Shown one piece after another: positions 4,281 to 9,095 of a stretch of 64,000 nucleotides of DNA (position 1 is the first letter of the stretch; every line of letters begins with the position of its first letter). The position numbers were made by a program, and so were the translations under genes. Source of the stretch: Caldalkalibacillus uzonensis (GTDB lineage Bacteria; Bacillota; Bacilli; Caldalkalibacillales; Caldalkalibacillaceae). Under the pieces are notes generated by a model. It did no database searches and had not been told where the DNA came from. It saw only the letters and a list, made by a program, of their open reading frames with translations. Location of the stretch: contig NZ_JAUSUQ010000001.1 of assembly GCF_030814135.1 (NCBI RefSeq), positions 372,001 to 436,000 on the forward strand, written 5' to 3'.

Positions 4281-5483
4281 ATGGCTGAGATTCGCCGTTT
4301 AACAGAAGCTGATATGGATGAAAGTTTCCGACTGTCCCAGTTTGCTTTTCAATACACCCTGTCAGAGGACGAATTGGCTGAAAGATTAAAGGAGGCAAAT
4401 CCGGCAGAAACGCTATGCTGCTTTATAGACGGGCAACTGGCCTCCAAGTTAACCATTCTCCCTTTGGCCATTTATTTACATGGTGAACGTTTTCCAATGG
4501 GGGGAATAGCGGATGTGGCCACTTGGCCAGAATACCGCCGCCAGGGGCTGGTTCGCCTCCTGATGCAACAGGCCTTAAAACAAATGAAAGATGACGGGCA
4601 GATCGTATCACTGCTGGCCCCCTTCCGCTACAGCTTTTATGATCAATTTGGCTGGGGCAAGATGAGCGAATACAAACATTATGAACTGAAAGTGGAGGAA
4701 ATCCCCCGTTTTCCCCGCCTTGAAGGACGGATACACCGTCTGGACCGGGGAGAAAGCCATCAGCTATACGATATTTATGACCGGTTTGCCCGCCGCTACA
4801 ATGGCATGCTGGCCCGCAAACCGGATTGGTGGGAAAAACGGGTGCTGAAGCGCAAACAGGGCACCATCGCGGTTTATGAAAACGTAAGCGGGACAAAGAC
4901 CGGTTATGTCCTTTATGAGGTAAAAGACCGTCAGATGACGATCCATGAATGGGTGGCGCTGGATGGGGAATCTTTCCGTTCCTTGTGGCACTTTATCGCC
5001 ATGCACGACTCCATGATTGACCGGGTCACATGCGATGTGCCACAGGACGATCCTTTACCCTTCTTGCTGCCAGAGCCCCGTATCAAGCAGGAAGTGGTGC
5101 CTTATTTCATGTGCCGCGTGGTGGATGTGGAAGCTATTTTGGCCAGCTATCCTTTTGAGGAACAGGACGCGGATATCCGCTCCCCGCTGTTTATCCATGT
5201 AGAGGATAGATATGCTCCTTGGAATCAGGGCACGTTTCAAGTGTCATGGATGGATGGAACACGGAAAGTGAGCGTTTTTTATCCAAAAGAAAAAGGACAG
5301 TGTGTTCATCCCCCAAACAGGGGCATACGCTGCTCCATTCAGGTTCTGTCCTCAATGTTATTTGGATATGGCCGGCCTGAAACCTGGTATGCCTGTGGCC
5401 AACTACAGGGAAATGCCCAGGATGTTCAACGCCTGGAACGGATGATTCCACGCCGTATCCCGCACTTGTTGGACTTTTTTTAA
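4281..5483 (+). CDS. Eis-like GNAT acetyltransferase
   Basis: A 400-residue protein of the Eis/enhanced intracellular survival type. The first GNAT domain (about 1-150) has the acetyl-CoA binding segment VATWPEYRRQGLVRLLMQQA near residues 79-98 followed by LAPFRYSFYDQFGWG. A second GNAT-like domain and a C-terminal SCP2-like domain fill the rest, as in the roughly 400-residue Eis family. Members N-acetylate amines such as aminoglycosides or protein lysines; the substrate here is unknown. The ATG at 4281 has a close GGAGG site. It appears to be a single-gene unit between divergent aceB and the convergent DUF4062 module. Confidence 0.85.
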   Translation: MAEIRRLTEADMDESFRLSQFAFQYTLSEDELAERLKEANPAETLCCFIDGQLASKLTILPLAIYLHGERFPMGGIADVATWPEYRRQGLVRLLMQQALKQMKDDGQIVSLLAPFRYSFYDQFGWGKMSEYKHYELKVEEIPRFPRLEGRIHRLDRGESHQLYDIYDRFARRYNGMLARKPDWWEKRVLKRKQGTIAVYENVSGTKTGYVLYEVKDRQMTIHEWVALDGESFRSLWHFIAMHDSMIDRVTCDVPQDDPLPFLLPEPRIKQEVVPYFMCRVVDVEAILASYPFEEQDADIRSPLFIHVEDRYAPWNQGTFQVSWMDGTRKVSVFYPKEKGQCVHPPNRGIRCSIQVLSSMLFGYGRPETWYACGQLQGNAQDVQRLERMIPRRIPHLLDFF

Positions 5484-5500: not shown

Positions 5501-5529
5501 AAAAAATAGGAGGAGACATCCTCCTATTT
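5501..5529 (-). terminator. Rho-independent terminator of the DUF4062 module
   Basis: The inverted repeat AAATAGGAGGA/TCCTCCTATTT (11 bp, 4-nt loop) is followed on the minus strand by a run of six T. On the plus strand there is no T-run, so it mainly ends the minus-strand pair 6731-5549 and may partly stop the acetyltransferase transcript. Confidence 0.75.
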
Positions 5530-5548
5530 CACATATGACGTTTTTCCT

Positions 5549-5704
5549 TTAACAATTGGCTAACGGGTTTTCAAACCTGATCTTTTTTGAGGCAACTTCA
5601 CGTATCACATCTTGAGTCTTAATAATGGAAGGGCCTGAGTTGTACTGTCGAAAGGCTTTTTGTGTATCCTGAACTTTCTTAGCCGGACTTTTTTTATCCT
5701 TCAT
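5549..5704 (-). CDS. Small basic protein overlapping the DUF4062 gene (51 residues)
   Basis: A 51-codon reading frame whose ATG lies inside the last codons of the DUF4062 gene (11-nt overlap), preceded by AAAGGGTGAG. The product starts MKDKKSPAKKVQDTQ and ends FENPLANC; the N-terminal part is lysine-rich and there is no hydrophobic segment. I do not recognise the family. The overlap, the shared terminator just downstream (5501-5529) and the site at a suitable distance argue that it is translated with the upstream gene and acts with it. The isolated C-terminal Cys is notable. Confidence 0.6.
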   Translation of the reverse strand: MKDKKSPAKKVQDTQKAFRQYNSGPSIIKTQDVIREVASKKIRFENPLANC

Positions 5705-6731
5705 CGTTCTCACCCTTTGCAAAAAAGAGATTAAAAGTATTAAAAAGCACTTTGTTTTTGTTGTAGATCTCCTCGAGAATCAAGTTCTCGTCATAACGTT
5801 TTTGGTACTCTTGTTCCACTAAGAAATGTAGAGTAAGAATGAATTGTTTTGCTATGGGGATGCATAAAATGTTCTCTTTTTCTCCAGCAGCTGTCTCTTT
5901 TTCAAATAACTTTGATTCTTGGCTTTGAAACGTGACAGATACGTAACTGGAGTGATCATTTAGATTGTAGGCTGTCCTCCCGCCCACATCTCCGGTTGAT
6001 CCAACTTTAATCAATTCCTCACCATGATCCGCTGAACGATATAGCGTTGCGCCTGTCGCTTTGCTTAATCTAATTATGGGCTGTGGAATAAAGTCTTGAT
6101 TATTGATATCTCCACTTTCTAACTCCTGGGTAAAAGCTGCAATGATTCGATTGTAATCGGTTTGGTTCTCGATGAGGGAAATGGCAAACCGAAAATAACT
6201 TTGAAATCTTTTCCCTCTATTTATTATATCATGAATTTCCCTTGCAGGTAGTTGTAGTTCCAGATAGCCTTTTAACAAATGAGACAATTGTGCGCGTATG
6301 TAGTTGAATGCTTCTTCAGAATTGCTAAAAGTCTTGACATAATGCCTGAAATTGGAGCTTACTTCTGAAATGAACTTATAAAATTCCTGGTCCAATTTTT
6401 GTGGGGCTTGTTGATATAATACCCACGTTTCATTTAATATAACAATAAATATCGGTTTTTTCTTTGCTTTTGCCTGATGATATTCAGCCTGAGTGATACT
6501 TAATCCTTCTTTAACTTGTGAACCAAAGTATTTGCCAATGAGTAACACATATACATCGGAATTCTCTACTTCTTGAAGGCAGCTTTTTATTATGTCTTCC
6601 CTAGTCCAATCAAATCTAATGGATTCAGACATGACAACAGTATGACCTAAGTAAGTTTCAATTTTGTCCCCCAGGGTATGCCGAACGTAATGCAAATCTT
6701 TGATTGTGGAGCTTAAGAATACCCGCAACAC
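5694..6731 (-). CDS. DUF4062 (TIR-like) protein with GAF-like C-terminal domain
   Basis: A 345-residue protein. Residues 1-105 fit DUF4062: RVFLSSTIKDLHYVRHTL at the start, then WTREDIIKSCLQEVENSDVYVLLIGKYFGS and SITQAEYHQAKAKKKPIFI. This domain resembles TIR/nucleotide-hydrolase folds and usually sits at the N-terminus of STAND-type signalling or defence proteins. From about 170 to the end the predicted alternation, with TGATLYRSADHGEELIKVGS and ENILCIPIAKQFILTLHFL, looks like a GAF-type ligand sensor; this is weaker. There is no NTPase Walker motif, so it is a short two-domain form. It starts at a GTG (6731) with an AGGGG site. The gene is visibly more AT-rich than its neighbours, which suggests acquisition. 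Role unknown; defence or stress signalling is inference. Confidence 0.7.
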   Translation of the reverse strand: MLRVFLSSTIKDLHYVRHTLGDKIETYLGHTVVMSESIRFDWTREDIIKSCLQEVENSDVYVLLIGKYFGSQVKEGLSITQAEYHQAKAKKKPIFIVILNETWVLYQQAPQKLDQEFYKFISEVSSNFRHYVKTFSNSEEAFNYIRAQLSHLLKGYLELQLPAREIHDIINRGKRFQSYFRFAISLIENQTDYNRIIAAFTQELESGDINNQDFIPQPIIRLSKATGATLYRSADHGEELIKVGSTGDVGGRTAYNLNDHSSYVSVTFQSQESKLFEKETAAGEKENILCIPIAKQFILTLHFLVEQEYQKRYDENLILEEIYNKNKVLFNTFNLFFAKGENDEG

Positions 6732-7004: not shown

Positions 7005-9095
7005 GTGTTTCTATTGGTTACAGACCCCAATAACCCAAAATACACGAACCGATTAATACACGAAAAGTCACCCTATCTTCTTCAACATGCCCACAATCCT
7101 GTAAACTGGTACCCTTGGGATGAGGAAGCCTTTGAAAAAGCAAGACGGGAAGACAAACCCGTTTTCCTCAGCATCGGTTATTCCACCTGTCACTGGTGCC
7201 ATGTCATGGAGAAGGAGTCTTTTGAGGATGAAGAGATTGCTGATATTTTGAACAACCATTTTGTCTCCATTAAGGTAGACCGGGAGGAGCGCCCCGACGT
7301 GGATGCGATTTACATGGCGGTCTGCCAAGCTTTGACCGGCCATGGCGGCTGGCCGCTGACCATTGTCATGCATCCCGACCAAAAGCCGTTTTTTGCAGCC
7401 ACTTATCTGCCCAAAGAAGGCAAATGGGGACGGTCCGGTTTGAAGGAAGTTTTACACAAAATTCAACAGCTATGGGTTGAGGACCGGCAGAAACTGAACG
7501 AAGCAGGGCAGAAAATTACCCAAGCCATCCAAGAGATGAAGCACCGCTCCAAAAGCGGAAAGCTGAGCAAAGAGACCCTCCATCGTGCCTATGTCCATTT
7601 TGAACGCAGCTTTGACCCGGACTACGGCGGTTTTGGAGAAGCCCCAAAGTTCCCCCTGCCCCACTATTACCTGTTTTTATTGCGCCATTGGCAGCTGACC
7701 AAAGAGCCTAAAGCGCTGGAGATGACGGAGCAATCCCTGCAGGCCATGCGCCGGGGCGGCATCTATGACCACCTGGGCCACGGGTTTGCCCGCTATTCCG
7801 TGGATGAAAAATGGCTCGTACCCCACTTTGAAAAAATGCTGTACGACAACGCCCTCTTAGCCTATGCCTATACGGAGACCTATCAAGCAACCAGAAATCC
7901 ATATTACAAACAGGTGACGGAAGACATTTTTGATTATGTTGAGCGGGTGATGACCGCACCTGAAGGAGGGTTTTACTCAGCAGAAGATGCTGATTCCGAA
8001 GGGGAAGAAGGCAAATTTTATGTATGGACACCAAAGGAGATTTTTGACGTCCTGCAGGAAGATGAGGCCGAAATATTCTGTGATGTCTACGACGTAACGC
8101 AGCAGGGCAATTTTGAGGGAAAAAATATTTTGCACCTGATTGATGTAGATCTGGAACAAAAAGCCAAACAGTATGGTTTATCCCTGGAGCAGCTTGAGCA
8201 GAAACTGGCCGAAGACCGGCATAAATTGTTTTTACAGCGTGAAAAACGGGTTCACCCCCACAAAGATGACAAGGTCCTGACGTCCTGGAACGCCCTGATG
8301 ATCGCTGCATTAACCAAAGCAGCCGCCGCATTTGGCCAGGCGCACTACCTGCAGATGGCCAAGAAAGCAGCCCGCATGATTGAAGACCGCTTGACGGACA
8401 ACAATGGACGCCTTCTAGCACGATATCGGGACGGCGAAGCACAGTATTTGGCTTATATTGATGACTATGCCTTTTATATTTGGGCGCTGCATGAGCTGTA
8501 TTTTGCCAGCGGTGAGGCCACTTATTTGGAACGGGCCAAAGCTTTGCTGGCCCAATCCCTGGAGCGCTTCTGGGATCAGGACAACGGGGGCTTTTTCTTC
8601 TCGGCCAGCGATGCAGAGACGCTCATTACCAATCCAAAGGAGATTTATGACGGTGCCACACCTTCAGGCAACGGCGTGATGGCCTTTAATCTGGTACGCC
8701 ACTACCTGATTAGCGGTGAAGACATTTACCGGGAAAAGGCTGAACAATTACTCCAGGCTTTTGGGCAGCAAATTAACGATTACCCCTCAGGCCATACATT
8801 TTCTTTGCTGGCCTTGCAACTGCTCACTGAAAAACACGCTGAGCTGGTGATTGTGGAAGGCAAAGACCGGGACACGTATGAGCGCATGGTAGAAAAGGTG
8901 CAGCAAACGTATCTTCCTTTTGCCGTTGTTGTGTATAAAACCCGTGAAGAAGAACAGCACTTGCCTGAGTTGGCACCCGCTCACCAGGATAAACAGGAAG
9001 TGGATGGTGCATCTACCTTCTATTACTGCGTGAACTTTGCCTGCCAGCAGCCGGTCCAGTCCGTGGAACAGATGGAACAGCTCCTTCAATCTTAA
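7005..9095 (+). CDS. yyaL: Thioredoxin-domain protein of the YyaL/DUF255 family
   Basis: A 696-residue protein of the spermatogenesis-associated-20/YyaL family. The N-terminal thioredoxin-like domain (about 10-170) has [20 protein letters not shown], a CHWC redox-type motif at 62-65 and [14 protein letters not shown]. The rest is an alpha/alpha-barrel glycosidase-like region ([52 protein letters not shown]). The biochemical role of the family is not settled. The frame can start at a GTG (7005), but AAAGGA at 6998-7003 fits better with a TTG at 7014, which would remove three residues. It is monocistronic, followed by an inverted repeat and the convergent parC. Confidence 0.85.

Follow-up and report, generated by a model that had tools for sequence, protein, structure and literature searches.

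The window, i.e. the whole stretch of DNA analysed here, comprises 64,000 nt of the Caldalkalibacillus uzonensis genome (GCF_030814135.1, contig NZ_JAUSUQ010000001.1, positions 372,001 to 436,000), and coordinates of the locus refer to it. On its minus strand lies a module of two overlapping genes: 11 nt are common to the 3' end of a 345-codon gene and the 5' end of a 51-codon gene, an arrangement already recognized in the preliminary description and borne out by the open reading frame (ORF) coordinates. The large gene is present as a single copy in the genome. The following features were located:

5694..6731, minus strand: large gene, 345 aa, DUF4062 (TIR-like) plus GAF fold, GTG start (ORF, translation, Pfam)
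6471..6725, minus strand: DUF4062/TIR-like catalytic domain, residues 3-87 (Pfam and PDB match to KpSwz)
6483..6485, minus strand: codon of Glu83, the predicted catalytic glutamate (alignment to the KpSwz chain)
5709..6248, minus strand: predicted GAF-fold domain, residues 162-341 (AlphaFold and Foldseek/VIA)
5549..5704, minus strand: small partner gene, 51 codons, ATG start (profile match; synonymous substitutions in the sister remnant)
5552..5644, minus strand: conserved C-terminal element of the partner, Y-N-S-GPSI ... VIREVA ... F-x-x-P (alignment, 18 relatives)
5508..5672, minus strand: stretch kept in the sister species G001 (G001:C17), 95% identical (genome comparison)
5504..5529, no strand assigned: 11-bp inverted repeat with A/T runs, AAATAGGAGGA-GACA-TCCTCCTATTT (sequence and scan)

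The module is the most A+T-rich stretch of the window, with a G+C content of 37.3% vs 48.1% for the window, in agreement with the deviating base composition remarked upon earlier. Tiling the window at module size gave 629 segments, of which only six are equally A+T-rich, and the eight that lie no more than one point from the G+C content of the module all start between 5400 and 6100, over the module. The inverted repeat is situated downstream of both genes and is terminator-like on the minus strand; an Rfam search gave no match near threshold. The flanking genes, a GNAT gene (4281-5483) and a thioredoxin-domain gene (7005-9095), both named by sequence, are ordinary single genes.

The N-terminal half of the large protein was assigned to DUF4062 (PF13271) by Pfam (E=4.2e-19; 69 bits vs a curated cut-off of 24.7), and a weak match to TIR_2 was also obtained (E=0.023). 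A PDB search identified KpSwz of the Swarozyc system as the sole convincing solved relative (E=6e-6, residues 3-157), and it was via KpSwz that DUF4062 was described as a TIR-like NADase used against phages in the main text of a 2026 preprint (Swarozyc; PMC13174449). The deposited KpSwz chain has an alanine at residue 84, where relatives carry a glutamate, and Glu83 of the window protein aligns to this position. Because the E97A construct starts at residue 15, Ala84 probably represents E97A, the mutated catalytic residue; on this alignment, and with E97A taken as chain residue 84, the window protein is predicted to possess the catalytic glutamate of DUF4062 NADases. The DUF4062 half was modelled by AlphaFold with low confidence because the alignment held five sequences, and the DUF4062 fold therefore rests on Pfam and the published structure. 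Judged by these sequence matches, a TIR-type enzyme, probably an NADase, is well supported, in keeping with the TIR-like nucleotide hydrolase that had been proposed, and the protein would be expected to hydrolyse NAD+. In a tree of DUF4062 domains, the window protein occupies a long branch with weak support, and its placement with the other DUF4062-GAF proteins is not firm.

For residues 162-341, no sequence-level family match was found, including none to the Pfam GAF models. AlphaFold predicted this region with pLDDT values of mostly 63-90 and one weak loop (208-220), and Foldseek/VIA searches with the C-terminal half returned a best Z score of 11.1, nearly all top matches being GAF domains. 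A better GAF model was obtained for a relative with a CAP12-type TIR (L060; pLDDT mostly 83-93, VIA Z 12.3). As modelled, the C-terminal half of the window protein is a GAF fold. The term “GAF-like,” a guess in the preliminary description, was right, as was the remark that an NTPase is lacking, and the proposed compact sensor-effector pair is recovered in the combination of DUF4062 and GAF domains with a recurrent partner.

Several relatives match the window protein in the C-terminal half alone. Their N-terminus belongs to CAP12-PCTIR_TIR (PF10137), another NADase-type TIR family, which was not found in the window protein, where DUF4062 stands instead. Nine further proteins, two Bacillus plasmid proteins among them, carry this GAF domain fused to DUF4062, and about 40 carry it fused to CAP12-PCTIR_TIR. 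GAF profiles of the DUF4062 group and the CAP12 group, each built without the window protein, match it at 6e-19 and 1.5e-20, respectively, and a profile-profile comparison between the two groups gave a probability of 95% (E=1.7e-8). In an unrooted GAF tree, the window protein is placed between nine DUF4062-type and 24 CAP12-type rows, and a single enzyme exchange would therefore suffice. The computed profiles and tree show one GAF family on which the TIR type appears to have been exchanged. This family was identified in 45 of 399 Bacilli genomes, and GAF profile searches of 398 genomes of the phylum found none outside the Bacilli. The gene pair is one example of a recurrent, unnamed module of Bacillus-related bacteria that is present in dozens of genomes.

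The 51-codon frame is a genuine gene. A profile of CAP12-type partners from which the window gene was excluded ranked the window frame first among 575 ORFs (E=1e-6; next 1.9). In the alignment of 18 relatives, one proline is invariant and a second nearly so, and the C-terminal element common to CAP12-type partners reads Y-x-GPS-L/V ... P-x-F. A small ORF directly 3' of the large gene exists for 50 of 52 distinct proteins, mostly overlapping it and often by the 4 nt ATGA. The two exceptions are L038, a broken gene with partner-like sequence nearby, and L109, a weak and doubtful hit that was left out of the family. Under strict criteria for start and ribosome-site, which the window's own pair just misses, a partner ORF follows 44 of the 52 large genes vs 6 of 362 other long genes at the same loci. 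Strong purifying selection acts on the partner in a Paenibacillus clade, where its pN/pS is 0.03; when this DNA is read in the two remaining frames, the ratio is 3-6. A chance ORF is ruled out by the profile match, selection and co-occurrence. The partner is obligate for the module, and the small basic protein had been rightly suggested as a partner. In a genome-wide search, every strong partner match except one, in G116, adjoins a large gene or what remains of one. The G116 match is a solitary partner-like ORF of 49 aa (L148, G116:C4, 4989-5138, minus strand) in which the conserved C-terminal element is present, and a large gene was not detected nearby.

All partners checked are basic (21/21; +4 to +14) and all large proteins acidic (52/52; -3 to -22). 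The partners of the nine DUF4062-type proteins resemble those of the CAP12 type in size, position and charge, and in most of them G/A-S/T-like residues come after a hydrophobic stretch; profile searches detected no homology between the two types. The window partner is of the CAP12 kind, though the window enzyme is DUF4062. Therefore, the partner would follow the GAF type and not the enzyme, as judged from this single case. With these findings, a small frame conserved together with the large gene and a ligand-domain fold in the C-terminal region, on both of which the preliminary description had staked its reading, are in place.

In the sister species G001, the region from 5673 to about 6800 of the window is deleted and the last 40 partner codons remain, with four coding substitutions that are all synonymous (4/4). 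The retained stretch is 95% identical vs 79% for the neighbouring gene, a difference in sequence identity hinting that the module was exchanged more recently between the window species and the G001 species. Broken large genes were found in several genomes of one family (L038/L040 in G294 and G086, L037 in G267, L039 in G383:C66), which shows repeated loss, and several broken large genes adjoin an open partner frame. Apart from the doubtful hit L109, every intact large gene found had a partner. Orphan partners were also considered as maintained antitoxins; those of G076 and G206 differ at four positions, all amino-acid changing and none silent, and look like neutral remnants.

Regarding genomic context, Paenibacillus copies are syntenic within clades and located among ordinary genes, and no neighbour other than the partner was found to recur between clades. 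One DUF4062-GAF locus (L108) adjoins the defence system IetAS, another (L107) a DndC-like gene and a type II methylase, and the plasmid relatives are situated near toxin/antitoxin genes. At CAP12-type loci, neighbour matches are mostly generic. A reverse transcriptase (L087, 12797-14245), matched by many RT models and best by a generic RT model (2e-78), lies a few genes from a DUF4062-GAF module. The module was not found in viral contigs or phage records, where near relatives are detectable, and a prophage or phage origin was set aside. A defence role of the window module, as raised in the preliminary description, is plausible. It is favoured by the status of DUF4062 as a published antiphage NADase family (main text of PMC13174449) and by the two DUF4062-GAF relatives next to defence genes. 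Against it stand the lone window copy among ordinary genes and the constant neighbours within Paenibacillus clades, an arrangement less usual for defence.

Among known systems, KpSwz (PDB 10wc, 11cq, 11cv) is similar in its N-terminal DUF4062 TIR-like domain with the aligned catalytic glutamate, and the two proteins are of about the same length, each with a C-terminal accessory domain. However, the accessory domain of KpSwz is described in the main text of the preprint as a helix-turn-helix/winged fold binding the phage portal, whereas that of the window protein is predicted to be a GAF fold, and the small partner gene of the window module has no counterpart mentioned in that main text (PMC13174449). 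Swarozyc membership was rejected because the sensor domain differs, the KpSwz match ending at residue 157 and the C-terminal half being a modelled GAF fold. Type II toxin-antitoxin pairs likewise consist of two short co-transcribed genes, and the module, which pairs a tiny basic protein with an enzyme that probably depletes NAD, is a two-gene unit with an obligatory partner (50/52 loci; 44/52 vs 6/362 strictly); in contrast to such pairs, its partner gene lies 3' of the enzyme and has no antitoxin family match. PDE6 with its gamma subunit was found among the structural matches of the GAF half (PDB 9cxi, 9cxg) and offers an analogy only: a GAF-containing hydrolase restrained by a tiny, basic, largely unfolded inhibitory controller. 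PDE6 is an unrelated eukaryotic enzyme, and the likeness of its gamma subunit to the partner is one of analogy, not of sequence relation.

Neither the GAF domain nor the partner has a match above threshold in Pfam, NCBIfam, PADLOC or PHROGs, and beyond the TIR half the combination has no model match above cut-off (PADLOC and PHROGs for the window pair only). In the literature searched, including the main text of PMC13174449, a description of the gene pair was not found. Relatives of the individual parts are known; it is their combination, a TIR NADase of exchangeable type that is putatively gated by a GAF domain and accompanied by its own small partner, that went without such a match.

It is proposed, with moderate confidence, that the gene pair is a two-gene NAD-depleting defence module in which a small partner acts as an inhibitor by holding the GAF domain. 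The enzyme class, the GAF fold and the obligate partner are the well-supported components of this proposal. In this model, the C-terminal GAF domain would gate the TIR-family enzyme (DUF4062, predicted catalytic Glu83), while the small basic protein would bind the acidic large protein via its conserved C-terminal segment, most likely at the GAF domain, and lock the enzyme in its inactive state. Release would follow from a trigger that is probably a product of the phage or some change linked to infection, and the TIR domains would then assemble and hydrolyse NAD+ until the cell stops (abortive infection). Binding between the two proteins is suggested by their opposite charges and co-occurrence; the inhibitory role and the trigger are what we infer beyond this. 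The wider proposal, an undescribed immune or toxin-antitoxin class defined by a GAF-gated TIR NADase, a dedicated basic controller of 50-90 residues and an interchangeable TIR (DUF4062 or CAP12-PCTIR), is evenly poised in our judgement.

Inhibition is preferred over activation because the searches yielded no intact enzyme lacking a partner and because restraint is the usual role of tiny basic partners encoded by overlapping genes. In general, small proteins that overlap their target gene and are translated together with it are more often inhibitors. However, a partner needed for activity would show equally tight co-occurrence. A positive subunit (co-sensor, bait or assembly factor) that activates the TIR-GAF NADase would explain the 50/52 co-occurrence, the purifying selection and the charge complementarity equally well, and neutral drift in one orphan-partner pair removes part of the antitoxin-like argument. 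The lack of partnerless intact large genes fits an inhibitor slightly better, as does the general behaviour of overlapping, co-translated partners, and activation is regarded as possible but rather unlikely.

Inhibition of a defence enzyme also has to be weighed against a regulator that serves NAD(P) metabolism in housekeeping or under stress and whose GAF domain would sense a metabolite. Small ligands are commonly bound by GAF domains, the window neighbours are ordinary, and stable neighbours and strong purifying selection are seen within Paenibacillus clades. Such a regulator is nevertheless improbable in view of the patchy distribution (45/399 Bacilli genomes), the variety of insertion sites, the plasmid copies, the defence neighbours and the fact that the module has been deleted or has decayed in G001, G068, G267, G294, G383 and elsewhere.

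Effectors of the CAP12/PycTIR kind combine other sensors (STING, cyclic-nucleotide binding) with a linked cyclase. Their TIR family, that of CBASS and Pycsar effectors (PF10137; NCBIfam NF050171, NF050172), is the same as in the GAF relatives, and some GAF domains bind cyclic nucleotides, so that the GAF domain might be thought to bind a nucleotide second messenger from a separate enzyme. The module, in contrast, has a GAF domain and a small partner, and no linked nucleotide cyclase was found among neighbours and the PADLOC families listed. No CD-NTase or Pycsar cyclase was identified near the module among these families (92 neighbour genes; best 25 of 155, one set), the partner is the sole neighbour shared across clades, and full-length Cap12 cut-offs are missed widely (86 of 450 bits). 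The second-messenger reading was rejected for want of a linked cyclase and is considered very improbable; the “nucleotide-signal module” of the preliminary description falls with it, as no nucleotide-making enzyme recurs beside the module.

Bacterial, plant and animal immunity all rely centrally on TIR NADases, and by what means each of these enzymes is kept silent before infection occurs is under active study. The module, in which two TIR families share one control unit and the tiny dedicated partner is annotated as “hypothetical protein,” makes a compact, directly testable system that would show in what manner NAD+ depletion is gated by GAF domains and small proteins, and a function is thereby proposed for an unnamed gene pair of many Paenibacillus, Brevibacillus and Bacillus-related bacteria. 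As a minor observation, two Paenibacillus-type genomes of the same genus group carry a second, decayed module (L150, 4816-4980; L151, 5154-5318), each consisting of a short C-terminal GAF remnant and a 54-aa partner and located at different sites.
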